Assembly: GCA_013822425.1 (NCBI GenBank)
Contig: PNKL01000013.1
Location: 1 to 64,000, forward strand
DNA: 64,000 nt
Origin: Gemmatimonas sp.
Lineage (GTDB): Bacteria > Gemmatimonadota > Gemmatimonadetes > Gemmatimonadales > Gemmatimonadaceae
Reading direction: 5' to 3'
Made by a program: the position numbers and the translations under genes. This document shows positions 53,149 to 63,093 of the stretch, in pieces. Under the pieces are notes generated by a model that saw nothing but the letters and a program-made list of their open reading frames with translations, was not told where the DNA came from and did no database searches. The number at the start of each line of letters is the position of its first letter. Position 1 is the stretch's first letter.

Positions 53149-55365
53149 CTAACGCTCCTCGAGCACCCGCAGTTCCGTATCCGCCGAGCGCAGCCGCTTG
53201 GATATCGCAACGGCCAGCCGCTCGAAGATGGTGCCGGCCAACGCTGGATATCTGGTCGCCATCGCGTCGAACCGGGCGCGCGAGAGCACGAACAACTCCG
53301 TGGGCGTCACCGCCTCCACGCTCGCCGAACGCGGCTCCTGATCAATGAACGCCATCTCGCCGAAGAAGTCGCCGCGGCAGAACATCGCCACGTGATGACG
53401 CTTGCCGGTCTCGAGCGGGAGCAGCGCGCTCACGCGTCCCCGGCGCAGGAGAAAGAGCTCATCGCCCGCGTCGCCCTGCTTGCAGATGGTGCCACCGGCC
53501 GGCACGCTGAGCGTGGTGACCGCGCCGGACAGCTCGCTGATCGTCTCCGCGTCGAACTCACTGAGCACCTCGATCTCGTGGAGGTCGAGCGCCGCCCCTT
53601 CCTCCTCCTCCGTCCAGCCGTGCGCCTCGAGCACGCGGTCCTCGATCCACTCGATGGCGCTGTCTCGGGTCTCGAAGAGCCGAATGCCATCGCCGCCGCG
53701 CACGAGTCCGAGTTGCGCGAGGTACCCCTCGATATCACCGCTCCGGGCCAGTCCCGACGGCATGGAACTGAACAGCAACTCGCCGCCGCCGTCGGCGAGG
53801 CGTTCCTTCATCTGCTCAAACAGGTGCGCGGCGGTGAAGTCCATGGACGTGACGCGCCGCATGTCGAAGAGCACGTAGCGGCAGCGACCCAGGTCGGGTT
53901 CGATCTCCGAGAAGAGCTTGTCGGTAGTGCCGAAGAACAGGGTGCCATGCAACTGCACGAGCACGGCCTCGCTGCCGTACTGGTCGAGGATATCCGACTC
54001 GGCGAGCAGGCGCCGCCGCTTGGAATGCACGGCGCGCAGGTCGCGCTTGTTCACGATCACCGAACTGCGCACCTGGTCGCGAATGAAGAGCAGGATGGCG
54101 AGGAAGATGCCCGTGGCGGAGGCCGCGATCAGTTCGTACTGCGCCACGGCGATGACCGTCAGGATGACGGCGAAGTCCACGCGCGTGGACGGATTGCGCA
54201 GCAGCTTGAGTACAGAGCGGTCGAACATGCGGAACGCCACCACCAGCAGGATGCCGGCGAGGGCGCCAATGGGCACCCAGGCGATGAGCGAGCCGAGCAG
54301 CAAGTAGGCGAGCACCACGAAGACGCCTTCGGCGATCCCGGATCGCGTCGAGCGGCCGCCGCTCGTGACATTCACCAGCGTGGCGCCCATGGTGCCGGCA
54401 CCGGCCAGGCCACCCACGAAGAACGACGCGAGGTTGGCGGTGCCCTGCCCGAGCAGTTCACGGTTGGAGTTGTGGCGGCTGCGCACGAGCGTGTCGAGCA
54501 CCACACCCGTCTTGAGCGTGTCAATGCTGAGCAGCACCGCCAGCGTGAGCGCTGAACTGAAGACCAGCGCGATGTCAGCGGGGGCGATATGCAGCAGCGA
54601 CGAGGCGCGCGCGCCGACCGAGTCGACGATGGAACCCGAAGCCGTGATGGGGCCGATGACGAGCTTGTTTCCCACCAGCTCCAGCAGGCCGCTGTTGAAC
54701 ATCGCGAGCCCGAAGTACGACGCGATACCGGCGGCAAGTCCGAGAATGGCCGCCGGCACCCTGGTGGTGACGCGCGGCGCGAGCAGCACGGCCGTGATGG
54801 TCACGAGTCCCACGATGATGCCGGACCATTTCCACATTTCGGGCGACGTAAGGCCTTCCAGGACATGCGTCCCCTTGGGCAGGCCCAGCAGCTTGGGCAG
54901 CTGTCCGACGGCGATGATGAGGGCGACGCCGGAGAGGTAGCCGCTCACCACCTGATACGGAATGAACTTGATGAGGCGTCCGACCTTCAGGACGCCGAAG
55001 ACGAGCTGGAAGAGCGCCGAAATGAGTGCCGTGAGTCCGAGCAGGGCGATGATGCGTTCGGGCGTCATGTCGCCCTTGGCGGCGAATCCGGCGGCAAGCC
55101 CTGAAAGAATGGCGGCCGCGGGGGCGCACGGCGCGGTGATGAAGCCGCCATTGCCGCCGACGATCGGCGCGATGATGCCGAGTGCCGCGGCACCGAGAAT
55201 GCCGGCGAGGGCGCCCGCCCCCGCCTGATCGGGACCGATGGCGCTGTAGATGAGGACGCCGAACGCGATGGAGGAGGGGAGCGCGACGAGCATCGCGGCC
55301 AGCCCGCCCCAGAGATCGCCGGCGCGGCCCGGCGTGCCGCTGTCAGCGAGTTGCAGCGTTGCCAT
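53149..55365 (-). CDS. SulP anion transporter with STAS and cyclic-nucleotide-binding domains
   Basis: A 738-residue protein. Residues about 10-420 form the SulP membrane domain (GLAAMLVALPSSIAFGVLIY, NGGFITAPCAPAAAILSGLA, NRELLGQGTANLASFFVGG). A STAS domain follows (about 470-590), with VLFDMRRVTSMDFTAAHLF, where the Ser is the usual phosphorylation-like position. Residues about 605-725 form a cNMP-binding domain with the phosphate cassette GDFFGEMAFIDQEPRSASVE. The transporter would move bicarbonate, sulfate or another anion and be gated by cAMP, cGMP or similar. The start was chosen at 55365 because upstream residues lack homology. Divergent from the Ser/Thr kinase gene, 216 bases apart. 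Confidence 0.92.
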   Translation of the reverse strand: MATLQLADSGTPGRAGDLWGGLAAMLVALPSSIAFGVLIYSAIGPDQAGAGALAGILGAAALGIIAPIVGGNGGFITAPCAPAAAILSGLAAGFAAKGDMTPERIIALLGLTALISALFQLVFGVLKVGRLIKFIPYQVVSGYLSGVALIIAVGQLPKLLGLPKGTHVLEGLTSPEMWKWSGIIVGLVTITAVLLAPRVTTRVPAAILGLAAGIASYFGLAMFNSGLLELVGNKLVIGPITASGSIVDSVGARASSLLHIAPADIALVFSSALTLAVLLSIDTLKTGVVLDTLVRSRHNSNRELLGQGTANLASFFVGGLAGAGTMGATLVNVTSGGRSTRSGIAEGVFVVLAYLLLGSLIAWVPIGALAGILLVVAFRMFDRSVLKLLRNPSTRVDFAVILTVIAVAQYELIAASATGIFLAILLFIRDQVRSSVIVNKRDLRAVHSKRRRLLAESDILDQYGSEAVLVQLHGTLFFGTTDKLFSEIEPDLGRCRYVLFDMRRVTSMDFTAAHLFEQMKERLADGGGELLFSSMPSGLARSGDIEGYLAQLGLVRGGDGIRLFETRDSAIEWIEDRVLEAHGWTEEEEGAALDLHEIEVLSEFDAETISELSGAVTTLSVPAGGTICKQGDAGDELFLLRRGRVSALLPLETGKRHHVAMFCRGDFFGEMAFIDQEPRSASVEAVTPTELFVLSRARFDAMATRYPALAGTIFERLAVAISKRLRSADTELRVLEER

Positions 55366-55484
55366 TGTTGCCTCGTGTCGCGGACGGAGTCGTCGGGTGA
55401 ATCGTGCCGCCTCCATCATGGCATGAATTGGGAGGGGCAGCGAGGGCGAGCCCCAGCCGAGTGTAGCCGCCGACTGACGACAAA

Positions 55485-58766: not shown

Positions 58767-59354
58767 GTGGCCGCGTTCCGGGACGCAGCCACCAGCACGA
58801 ACGCCCTCGCGGCCGTCGCCGGGTTGGTGGCAGGGGCGTTGTCCATGGCGGCTGGCGAATACGTGTCGGTCAGCTCACAATCCGACACGGAACAGGCCGA
58901 CCTCAAGCGCGAACGAGGCGAACTCGCGTCGGCGCCAGAGAGCGAACTCGCGGAGCTGACGGGAATCTACATGGGTCGCGGTCTCACGCCGGAACTCGCG
59001 GCCCAGGTGGCGGCGCAACTGACGGCCAAGGATGCACTCGGCGCACACGCGCGCGACGAGCTGGGGCTATCCGCCATCACGCGAGCCCGGCCGATTCAGG
59101 CGGCGCTCGCCTCGGCGGCGGCGTTCGCGATTGGCGCGACACCGCCGCTGCTGCTCGTGATTGCGCTTCCCCTCACCGCGCTGTCGTGGGTGGTGATGGG
59201 CGTTTCGCTCGCGCTGCTCGTCGGGCTCGGCGCGCTGGCGGGGCACCTCGGGGGAGCGTCGAAGATGCGCGGCGCGATACGCGTGGCGTTCTGGGGTGCG
59301 GTGGCGATGGCGGCGACGTCCCTGGTGGGGAAGCTGTTCGGCGCCGTGGGATAG
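58767..59354 (+). CDS. VIT1/CCC1 family protein lacking the N-terminal helix
   Basis: A 195-residue membrane protein similar to the vacuolar iron transporter family. Family landmarks present: GLVAGALSMAAGEYVSVSSQ, the helical metal-binding region QADLKRERGELASAPESELAEL, and three C-terminal hydrophobic helices. Full-length VIT proteins begin with a first helix carrying G-x-N-D-G, whose Asp takes part in transport. That part, about 40 residues, is missing here: only a short, unrelated lead (VAAFRDAATSTNALAAVAG) precedes the second helix, and the kinase gene ends eight bases upstream. The protein therefore probably cannot transport as the normal family does, and may be a remnant. GTG 58767 is the start used. 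Confidence 0.75.
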   Translation: MAAFRDAATSTNALAAVAGLVAGALSMAAGEYVSVSSQSDTEQADLKRERGELASAPESELAELTGIYMGRGLTPELAAQVAAQLTAKDALGAHARDELGLSAITRARPIQAALASAAAFAIGATPPLLLVIALPLTALSWVVMGVSLALLVGLGALAGHLGGASKMRGAIRVAFWGAVAMAATSLVGKLFGAVG

Positions 59355-59381
59355 CCACGCAACGCGCGGCGGTGCACGTGC

Positions 59382-59458: not shown

Positions 59459-60517
59459 ATGCCTGTCCCAACCATCCGTACGGTTGCCTGTGCGCTTCCC
59501 GCGCACTTTGTTGATCAAGAGACCCTGATCGCGGCGTTTCGCGACGAGTGGACCGCGAAGCACTTCAACGTCGAGCGCCTTGAGGAACTGCACCGCGCCG
59601 TCGGCGTAGGCGGGCGGCATCTTGCGCTCCCCGTCGCGGAGTATCGCGCACTCACCTCCTTCCAGGCCCGCAACGACGCGTGGACCGCAGCGGCCTTGGA
59701 TCTGGGTGCGCAGACGGCGCAGGCAGCGCTTGCGACAGCCGGGCTCGCCGCTACCGATATCGATCACCTGTGCTTCGTGACGGTGACGGGGCTGGCGACT
59801 CCTTCGATCGACGCGCGACTGGTCAACCGGCTTGGCTTTCGTCCCGATGTCACCCGCGCGCCCCTCTTCGGACTCGGCTGCGTGGGTGGCGTCGCCGGCA
59901 CGTCTCGCGTGAGCGACGTCATGCGCGCGTGGCCGAATCAGCGGGCGCTGTTGATCGCCGTCGAGCTCTGTTCGCTGACCCTGCAGCGCGATGACGTCTC
60001 GGTGGCCAACATCATCAGCAGCGGGCTCTTTGGCGACGGAGCGGCCGCGCTGCTCATGGAAGGCGGTGCACGGAATGGCGAGGGACCGAAAGTGATCGCC
60101 ACGGCATCGGTATTCTATCCCAACACCGAGCGCGTGATGGGATGGGACTTCGTGGACACGGGGTTCAAGATCGTGCTTTCCGCCACCGTGCCAGACGTGG
60201 TACGCGAACATGTACGCGGAGATGTCGACGCGTTTCTTCACGCGCACGGCCTCGCGCGCGGCGATATTGCGCACTGGGTGGCGCACACCGGCGGCCCGAA
60301 GGTACTGAAGGCCTTCGAGGAAGCGCTCGAACTCGCGCCGGCGGCGCTTGAGCGCTCGTGGCGGTCGCTGCGAGAGGTGGGTAACCTGTCGTCGGCGTCG
60401 GTGCTGTTCGTGCTGGCCGACCTGCTTGCCAGCGGGGCACCGCGTCCTGGCGACTACGGCCTGATGCTGGCCATGGGACCGGGCTTCTGTGCCGAACTGG
60501 TGCTGCTGCAGTGGTGA
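59459..60517 (+). CDS. Type III polyketide synthase (chalcone/stilbene synthase-like)
   Basis: A 352-residue homodimeric ketosynthase-type enzyme that extends an acyl starter with malonyl-CoA units and cyclises it. The triad is present: Cys141 in FGLGCVGGVAG, His276 in HTGGPKVL, and Asn309 in REVGNLSSASVLF. The His motif HTGGP differs from the usual HPGGP. The size fits bacterial alkylresorcinol/alkylpyrone synthases. It is the first gene of a coupled four-gene operon; the next gene overlaps its stop. With a downstream ACP and fatty-acyl-AMP ligase, the starter is likely a long acyl chain loaded on ACP. The product ring type (resorcinol or pyrone) cannot be read from sequence. Confidence 0.95.
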   Translation: MPVPTIRTVACALPAHFVDQETLIAAFRDEWTAKHFNVERLEELHRAVGVGGRHLALPVAEYRALTSFQARNDAWTAAALDLGAQTAQAALATAGLAATDIDHLCFVTVTGLATPSIDARLVNRLGFRPDVTRAPLFGLGCVGGVAGTSRVSDVMRAWPNQRALLIAVELCSLTLQRDDVSVANIISSGLFGDGAAALLMEGGARNGEGPKVIATASVFYPNTERVMGWDFVDTGFKIVLSATVPDVVREHVRGDVDAFLHAHGLARGDIAHWVAHTGGPKVLKAFEEALELAPAALERSWRSLREVGNLSSASVLFVLADLLASGAPRPGDYGLMLAMGPGFCAELVLLQW

Positions 60518-61089
60518 CGGGCAGCGTGGCGGTACTCGGCGTGGTCGCGGCCGTGGCCCTTGAACGGCTGGCCGAACTGCACCTGTCGCGACGAAACGCC
60601 GCCTGGGCGACGGCGCACGGCGGGATCGAAGTCGGGCCAGGCGTCTATTGCCTCATGGCCGTGTTCCATGTGGCGTTTCTCATGGCCTGCGTGGCAGAAC
60701 CATTGCTGATGCGTCGGGTGTTTACGCCGGCGCTTGCCGCAGCGTGCCTTGTGGTGTTGATGGGCGCGCAGGTTCTGCGATGGTGGGCAATCATCACGCT
60801 TGGCCCGCGCTGGAACACGCGCATCATCGTCATCCCCGACGCGGTACCGGTGACTGGCGGGCCATATCGCTGGGTCCGGCACCCCAACTACGTCGCGGTC
60901 ATCGCCGAGATGGTGGCGTTGCCCCTGCTGGGCGGCGCTTGGGTAACGGCACTGGTCGCCACGGCCGGCAACGCGCTCATTCTGCGGGTGCGGATTAACA
61001 GCGAGGAGCGGGCACTGGGCACGCAATGGGCGCGCGCCTTTGCCGCGACACCGCGATTCGTGCCGTGGGGCTCGCGTGACGGCTCTTGA
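60514..61089 (+). CDS. ICMT-like membrane methyltransferase of the PKS operon
   Basis: A 191-residue membrane protein of the isoprenylcysteine carboxyl methyltransferase family with about four to five helices. The conserved C-terminal region includes GGPYRWVRHPNYVAVIAEM, and the final E...L segment INSEERALGTQWARAFA, which bind S-adenosylmethionine in the family. In several bacterial type III PKS clusters an ICMT-like enzyme (for example SrsB) O-methylates the phenolic lipid. GTG 60514 was chosen because it forms a GTGA overlap with the PKS stop, like other joins in this operon. The stop lies 14 bases into the next gene. Confidence 0.92.
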   Translation: MTGSVAVLGVVAAVALERLAELHLSRRNAAWATAHGGIEVGPGVYCLMAVFHVAFLMACVAEPLLMRRVFTPALAAACLVVLMGAQVLRWWAIITLGPRWNTRIIVIPDAVPVTGGPYRWVRHPNYVAVIAEMVALPLLGGAWVTALVATAGNALILRVRINSEERALGTQWARAFAATPRFVPWGSRDGS

Positions 61090-61345
61090 ACAGGAGGTAC
61101 TCGACGTCATTCGGCGCATCTTCTCCACTGAACTCGAGTACACGGGAACGGTGGAGCCCGAGCACCACCTGCAACGCGACCTGTACGTGGACTCGCTGAA
61201 TGCCGTGATCATGGCCGTCGGACTCGAAGACCACTTTCGCATACGCCTCACGCAGGAGGATACCGCCGGCATCACCACCGTCAGCGGTCTCATGGTGCGC
61301 GTGGCGGAGCGCGTGCGTGCCGCGCGTGAGGAACCCGCGAAGTGA
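61076..61345 (+). CDS. Stand-alone acyl carrier protein
   Basis: An 89-residue acidic carrier protein. The core YVDSLNAVIMAVGLEDHF contains the phosphopantetheine-accepting Ser40 and following hydrophobic helix, close to the DSL motif of ACPs. It probably takes the acyl-adenylate from the fatty-acyl-AMP ligase encoded next and offers the acyl chain to the type III PKS. The GTG start at 61076 was chosen because the first ACP helix begins immediately (TALEQEVLDVIRRIF). It overlaps the methyltransferase gene by 14 bases and the ligase by four (GTGA). A phosphopantetheinyl transferase is needed in trans and was not found in the window. Confidence 0.9.
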   Translation: MTALEQEVLDVIRRIFSTELEYTGTVEPEHHLQRDLYVDSLNAVIMAVGLEDHFRIRLTQEDTAGITTVSGLMVRVAERVRAAREEPAK

Positions 61346-63093
61346 TCTGCGGCAGCGCACTCCCGCCGCTCGACGTCGTCACCGTCAACGCGGCGCTCGC
61401 ACGCGCGGCACGTGGTGCGCACGGTCTGGTGTTCGTGGATGCGGGCGAACACGAACGGGTGTTGCCGTGGAACGAGGTGCAGGCAGGCGCCCGGCGCATG
61501 GCGGGCGCGTTGGCTGAACGCGGTGTGCAACCCGGCGATCGCGTCGCGATGGTGCTGCCCACCGGCCCAGACTTCATGGATGCCTTCTTCGGAACCCTGC
61601 TTGCTGGTGCGGTTCCGGTGCCGCTGTATCCACCGGTCCGTCTGGGGCGCATGGAGGAGTACGTGCTGGGCACCGCCCGCATGCTTGAGGTTGTCGGCGC
61701 GCGGGTGCTCTTGTCCGATGCACGCACGCGCCTGCTGCTCGGCGAGGCGGTTGCCCGCGCCCGACCAGCGCTTGGCTGTCCCACCGTGGCCGATCTCCTG
61801 GATGGCGCGTCTGGACACGAAGTATCGGTCGAGCCAGAAGCGCTGGGGCTCATCCAGTTCTCGTCGGGATCGACGGTCGATCCCAGGCCGGTCGCGCTCA
61901 CGCACCATGCGTTGATAGCGCAGGTCGCCGCGCTCAAGGCGCTGCTGCCGGCACCGCCGGGCTCACCCCAGACGGGCGTATCGTGGCTGCCTCTGTACCA
62001 CGACATGGGACTCGTTGGCTGCTTGCTGGAGGCGCTGTACTATCCCGCCACCCTCGTGCTTATTCCGCCAGAGCTCTTCCTCGTGCGACCGGCACTCTGG
62101 CTGCGCGCGCTCTCGCGGCACCGCGGCGTTGTGTCGCCCGCGCCGAACTTCGCGTACGGGCTCTGCTGCAAGCGTATTCGCGACGACGAGCTCGAGGGCG
62201 TGGATCTCGGACACTGGCGCTACGCGCTCAATGGTGCAGAGCCAATCGCGGCCGGGGTGCAGCAGGCCTTTGCGACCCGCTTCGCGCGCGTCGGATTCCG
62301 CGCCGAGTCGCTGATGCCTGTCTATGGTCTGTCGGAGTGTGCGCTGGCAGCGACGTTCACCAGCGCCGACGGACCCAAGCGGGAGATCAGCTTGGACGCC
62401 GGTATCCTCGCCGCGACAGGCCGTGTGGTGCCGGGGTCGCGACGTGTCGTCTCGGTCGGCACGCCGATACCCGGCGCGGTACTCGACGTGCGCGATGACG
62501 CGGGCGTGCCATGCGCCGAAGGTGAGGTGGGGCGTGTTTGGATCCGCGCTCCGTTCGTGATGAAGGGATACTTCGACCAACCGCAGGCGACTGACGCGGT
62601 GCTGCGTGATGGATGGCTCGACACCGGTGACGTCGGTCTGGTGGACGGCGGCGAACTGTTCATCACCGGCCGGGTCAAGGACGTGGTGATCATCCGGGGC
62701 GCCAATCACGCACCGCAAACGTTTGAGGACTGTCTCGCGGGTATCGAGAACCTTCGTGCCGGATGTGCGGTGGCGCTCGGTGTCGTGCCGCCGGGACAGG
62801 ACACCGAAGCGCTGCTCGTGCTCGCGGAATGCTCAGCGGCACCGCCCGCTGGGCTCGAGGAGCGCATCGTGGCCGCGATCGTTGAGCACACCAGCATCGT
62901 GCCACATGCGGTGGTACTGCTGGCACCGGGCACGCTGCCGCGCACCAGCAGCGGCAAGCTGCGGCGAGGCGAAGCGCTCAGGCGGTACTGCGCGGGGGAG
63001 TTGACGGCGCCCGCGCCCGTGACGCGGCTGCGTCTTGGCGCCCACGTCGCGAGGTCGCTGGCGGCGTTCGCACGGCTTCGGCTCGATCGGTGA
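61342..63093 (+). CDS. Fatty-acyl-AMP ligase
   Basis: A 583-residue acyl-adenylating enzyme. The ATP loop IQFSSGSTVDPRPVALTH, the region LNGAEPI that is typical of FAALs, YGLSECALAATF, and TGDVGLVDGGELFITGRVKD followed by VVIIRGANHAPQ identify the family; the catalytic Lys is in TSSGKLRRGE. FAALs form acyl-AMP and pass the acyl group to an ACP rather than CoA. Usually NxYP precedes the hinge region; here it reads NHAP, a small variation. GTG 61342 overlaps the ACP stop. Last gene of the type III PKS operon. Confidence 0.94.
   Translation: MICGSALPPLDVVTVNAALARAARGAHGLVFVDAGEHERVLPWNEVQAGARRMAGALAERGVQPGDRVAMVLPTGPDFMDAFFGTLLAGAVPVPLYPPVRLGRMEEYVLGTARMLEVVGARVLLSDARTRLLLGEAVARARPALGCPTVADLLDGASGHEVSVEPEALGLIQFSSGSTVDPRPVALTHHALIAQVAALKALLPAPPGSPQTGVSWLPLYHDMGLVGCLLEALYYPATLVLIPPELFLVRPALWLRALSRHRGVVSPAPNFAYGLCCKRIRDDELEGVDLGHWRYALNGAEPIAAGVQQAFATRFARVGFRAESLMPVYGLSECALAATFTSADGPKREISLDAGILAATGRVVPGSRRVVSVGTPIPGAVLDVRDDAGVPCAEGEVGRVWIRAPFVMKGYFDQPQATDAVLRDGWLDTGDVGLVDGGELFITGRVKDVVIIRGANHAPQTFEDCLAGIENLRAGCAVALGVVPPGQDTEALLVLAECSAAPPAGLEERIVAAIVEHTSIVPHAVVLLAPGTLPRTSSGKLRRGEALRRYCAGELTAPAPVTRLRLGAHVARSLAAFARLRLDR

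Follow-up and report, generated by a model that had tools for sequence, protein, structure and literature searches.

We found that the window (the whole stretch of 64,000 nucleotides analysed here) carries what is very probably an ftp-type alkylresorcinol/alkylresorcylic-acid operon, horizontally acquired and without a monooxygenase, in which a type III polyketide synthase (PKS) would be fed by a fatty acyl-AMP ligase (FAAL) and an acyl carrier protein (ACP) and its product O-methylated. We also lean, with appreciable doubt, towards a narrower account, in which a four-gene ftp variant that stops before the quinone and yields a methylated alkylresorcinol or resorcylate as end product was acquired horizontally by one species of a genus otherwise without type III PKS.

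Gene content and conserved residues

The operon lies on the plus strand, next to a transporter gene:

58767 to 59357, plus strand: VIT family transporter, genus-native, at the left border of the putative insertion and outside the pathway
59459 to 60517, plus strand: type III polyketide synthase, FtpA-like (Pfam Chal_sti_synt_N/C)
60511 to 61089 (alternative start 60514), plus strand: ICMT-family membrane methyltransferase (Pfam ICMT, 2.9e-28)
61076 to 61345, plus strand: stand-alone acyl carrier protein (Pfam PP-binding, 9e-6; phosphopantetheine site Ser40)
61342 to 63093, plus strand: fatty acyl-AMP ligase (Pfam AMP-binding; top NCBIfam model a FAAL)

The original prediction had placed four overlapping genes at 59459-63093, and all the open reading frames were found there with the overlaps as given: when the methyltransferase gene is started at 60514 instead of 60511 it shares a GTGA overlap with the PKS gene, the ACP gene has a GTG start and overlaps the methyltransferase gene by 14 bases, and the FAAL gene shares a GTGA overlap with the ACP gene. 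The catalytic residues that it had called intact are likewise present and invariant in relatives, namely the PKS triad Cys141/His276/Asn309 (83/83 rows in the alignment of relatives) and the ACP Ser40 (34/34 rows, with Asp39-Ser40 invariant). The methyltransferase, whose gene holds the same position in related loci, has a His124-Pro-Asn-Tyr motif and Glu165 that are conserved in 52/52 relatives, and this ICMT-family enzyme probably O-methylates the polyketide. The only PPTase found in the host genome is encoded by an ACPS gene of the PPTase family, which may act on the window ACP.

The first gene combines the Cys-His-Asn triad with a chalcone synthase family match, as expected of a type III PKS, and has 61-71% identity to its orthologues, which are mostly myxobacterial. 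An identity as FabH was rejected, since the matches to Chal_sti_synt (83 and 73 bits) and to DpgA, a type III PKS model (204 bits), exceed those to FabH models (72 bits), and since the best solved relatives, Pks11 of M. tuberculosis and CylI, are type III PKSs.

Synteny among relatives of the PKS

One genome per species (84,980 species) was scanned for relatives of the PKS, and 80 loci were kept. The closest relatives come mostly from Myxococcota (Archangium, Corallococcus, Myxococcus, Pyxidicoccus, Hyalangium, Citreicoccus). The order PKS-methyltransferase-ACP-FAAL recurs in dozens of loci, again mostly of Myxococcota, and a gene for a flavin monooxygenase usually comes next; among loci with enough downstream sequence, 27 have all five genes. 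The original prediction had proposed a search for conserved synteny as a check, and its outcome, a gene order conserved in many genomes, rules out a chance adjacency of the four genes. Eight further loci have the PKS, methyltransferase and monooxygenase without FAAL-ACP, and 18, in one acidobacterial clade, have the PKS and monooxygenase only.

The four-gene order is present in every Myxococcus locus checked (L032, L033, L036, L038), and three further Myxococcus-group loci have the same five genes in the same order. The PKS orthologue occurs in 15/16 genomes of the Myxococcus group, with 61-66% identity to the window PKS over 349-350 residues, and it is the sole type III PKS in nearly all of them. 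Because there is one such gene in nearly all of the group genomes searched, we equate this orthologue with ftpA of M. xanthus. FtpA is the subject of Hayashi et al. 2011 (ChemBioChem, doi 10.1002/cbic.201100344; cited in PMC10896814, PMC5916927 and PMC8460268), which by its title concerns a type III PKS for alkylresorcylic acid and the involvement of a fatty acyl-AMP ligase. The alkylresorcylic acid cluster of M. xanthus comprises genes for a stilbene synthase, a methyltransferase, an AMP-dependent synthetase and a monooxygenase (PMC5006271). The window resembles this cluster in that its order of PKS, methyltransferase, ACP and FAAL genes is also that of the Myxococcus relatives, with the PKS identity given above and about 60% for the FAAL, both measured against the group orthologues; it differs in its lineage and in having no downstream flavin monooxygenase. 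The original prediction did not recognise the cluster as a described one, and in this it did not hold, the cluster being of the ftp type known from M. xanthus, in a four-gene order that is widespread in Myxococcota.

The ligase and the probable supply of acyl-ACP

We refer to the fourth gene as FtpD-like, presuming FtpB-D to be the right gene names. For this gene NCBIfam ranked PRK09192 (fatty acyl-AMP ligase) first, at 418 bits, and PRK07768, which is named long-chain-fatty-acid--CoA ligase, second, at 375 bits; several FAAL models come next and general CoA ligase models begin at 163 bits, but all these matches are under the curated cut-offs, so that the ranking alone is not decisive. The closest solved relatives of the ligase are FAAL-type domains, including EcFAAL (3pbk). 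In EcFAAL the bulky residues W224, M231 and F279 close the CoA pocket, and helix 252-258 is FAAL-specific (PMC8460268). These three residues align with Trp215, Met222 and Phe270 of the window ligase, all three of which are kept by 39/39 relatives, as is Lys539; P226 and P107, two prolines of the pocket, correspond to P217 and P98, and the counterpart of the helix is segment 243-249. By alignment, the fourth gene thus appears to have both the CoA-rejecting residues and the helix segment of a FAAL. Its A3 phosphate-binding loop is unusual (SSGSTVDPRPV, residues 174-184, window 61861-61893): the residue that follows the lysine or arginine of this loop is glycine in solved FAALs but proline in 38/39 family rows. 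We count this deviation from the usual FAAL motif against the ftp-type reading, although the whole family shares it.

The delivery model of the original prediction, in which the FAAL loads the ACP, acyl-ACP feeds the PKS and O-methylation follows, is the best reading and agrees with published precedent; it is probably right, but the mechanism was already known from M. xanthus. MxFAAL loads MxACP in vitro, both being from M. xanthus (eLife 2021; PMC8460268), and we infer that this is the pair of the ftp cluster. A review of FAALs has an entry for alkylresorcylic acid that gives C18:0 and in vitro data, and it also describes how FAAL-ACP feeds a type III PKS pathway in cylindrocyclophane formation (PMC11837247). 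There the stand-alone FAAL CylA loads the stand-alone ACP CylB before the type III PKS CylI acts (PMC11837247, PMC8086630); however, type I PKS steps intervene, the system is cyanobacterial with other tailoring, and CylI is a more distant homologue.

It might be argued that acyl-CoA, or acyl-ACP made by fatty-acid synthesis, is the main starter of the PKS, with the FAAL-ACP pair as a salvage or accessory supply. Relatives that have the PKS, methyltransferase and monooxygenase without FAAL or ACP (L026, L039, L041, L046 and others) suggest that the pair is dispensable for enzymes of this PKS family, but most members of the clade to which the window PKS belongs have kept the pair alongside the PKS, and the genes of the window operon overlap; we regard an accessory role as improbable. 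In the Archangium MAG clade (L026, L031, L039) the PKS, methyltransferase and monooxygenase are kept while ACP and FAAL are missing, and the myxobacterial loci L016 and L023 have PKS-ACP-FAAL without a methyltransferase; together they form a natural comparison for FAAL-ACP dependence. As for SrsA/SrsB of Streptomyces griseus and the corresponding pair of Bacillus subtilis, we know of no dedicated FAAL-ACP pair in either system. What they share with the window is a type III PKS accompanied by a methyltransferase, going by the titles given in PMC5916927.

Proposed pathway and product

We hypothesise a pathway whose substrate, order of steps, product and gene roles are taken by analogy from these precedents. 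The FAAL would adenylate a long-chain fatty acid and load the acyl group onto the phosphopantetheine arm of the ACP encoded next to it, from which the PKS would take it, extend it with malonyl-CoA and cyclise the chain to an alkylresorcylic acid or alkylresorcinol; the ICMT-family enzyme would then O-methylate this product, possibly with decarboxylation.

With the same FAAL-ACP delivery, the product could instead be an O-methylated alkyl-alpha-pyrone, which we consider a possible but less probable outcome. The best solved PKS relative, Pks11, is titled an alpha-pyrone synthase, and a type III PKS cluster that is conserved in Myxococcota and assigned to alkylpyrones is present in M. xanthus DK1622 (PMC12766979). 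The alkylpyrone cluster BGC0001831 (Hug et al. 2019) has a type III PKS core in the same genera, possibly at the same locus; it differs from the window in its assigned product, an alkylpyrone. Against a pyrone, the M. xanthus product named in the title of Hayashi 2011 is alkylresorcylic acid, and a tryptophan that is reported to be conserved among enzymes forming resorcinols (PMC5916927) seems to have its counterpart in Trp229, which is invariant in the 83 rows of the alignment of relatives and sits in a GWD motif that aligns with Pks11. An alkylresorcinol-type product thus remains our preferred reading.

Absence of the monooxygenase

The flavin monooxygenase of the relatives, a FAD_binding_3 protein, is a common and perhaps dispensable member of ftp clusters. 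No gene for it lies beside the window cluster, where the next genes after the FAAL, on the other strand, encode a glycine-rich protein and a DUF11 protein and are followed by argG, and a query search of the whole host genome gave no match, while the same query was positive in four control genomes, including that of G103, of the same class, where the monooxygenase gene is adjacent to that genome's own PKS gene. The window cluster is therefore a four-gene cluster of the ftp type and not a complete ftp cluster. The monooxygenase is also missing in L044, L016 and L023, and for this reason its absence was handled as a variant feature.

In M. xanthus the alkylresorcinol is oxidised to an alkylquinone (PMC10896814), and by analogy the monooxygenase is likely the enzyme of this quinone-forming oxidation. 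With the monooxygenase absent, the window pathway probably ends before the quinone, and its end product would be a methylated alkylresorcinol-type lipid. The missing fifth gene could also be taken as the mark of a genuinely new pathway, or of a degraded and non-functional ftp remnant. Either is very unlikely in our judgement, given that none of the four genes is disrupted and their catalytic residues are conserved, that the same four-gene core is known, and that forms without the monooxygenase occur elsewhere, in L044 and, as PKS-ACP-FAAL without the methyltransferase, in L016 and L023.

Origin and genomic context

Among 11 genomes of the genus, the PKS was found only in that of the window, the other ten having only FabH-level matches. 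In the tree, the window PKS forms a pair with a sequence from a deltaproteobacterial contig (support 99/92), and the pair is nested in a clade of 41 rows, mostly Myxococcota (support 100/100). The closest genomes of the same class to encode a related PKS (G103, G219) branch elsewhere in the tree, which disfavours vertical descent within the class. The nearest plasmid matches of a kinase gene in the neighbourhood are to Gemmatirosa, pointing to Gemmatimonadota as the phylum of the host.

The VIT transporter has 76-80% identity to its copies in four same-genus genomes, and the gap between VIT and argG is 66 and 77 bp in two same-genus genomes, compared with about 6 kb here. Neither the four operon genes nor the two downstream genes are found in the VIT-argG intervals of those four same-genus genomes. 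The cluster has a GC3 of 0.78-0.79, lower than the 0.83-0.86 of two upstream neighbours. The simplest reading of these sequence comparisons is that the operon was horizontally acquired into the VIT-argG interval. A misbinned contig was ruled out, because VIT and argG of the same contig are 76-93% identical to the same-genus copies.

The interval here runs from window 59355 to contig position 65319 (L114). It is variable in the genus (L150-L153), being near-empty in two cases, while the remaining two hold different sequence, about 1.7 kb in one and about 3.0 kb in the other. In the region L114:5238-7231 (window 63237 onward, minus strand), the glycine-rich protein has 289 amino acids and no Pfam match; it is encoded directly downstream of the DUF11/DUF5979 protein on the same strand, and a frameshift may have divided what was a single surface protein into these two. 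Elsewhere in the window, 53149-55419 on the minus strand encodes a SulP transporter fused to a STAS and a cyclic-nucleotide-binding domain.

Implications

The view of type III PKS starters is unchanged by this cluster, FAAL-ACP supply being already known. The cluster would extend the ftp route of myxobacteria beyond Myxococcota. As a natural four-gene version, it may also let the contribution of the monooxygenase be tested, together with the need for FAAL-ACP delivery, which is testable because PKS relatives occur with and without the pair.
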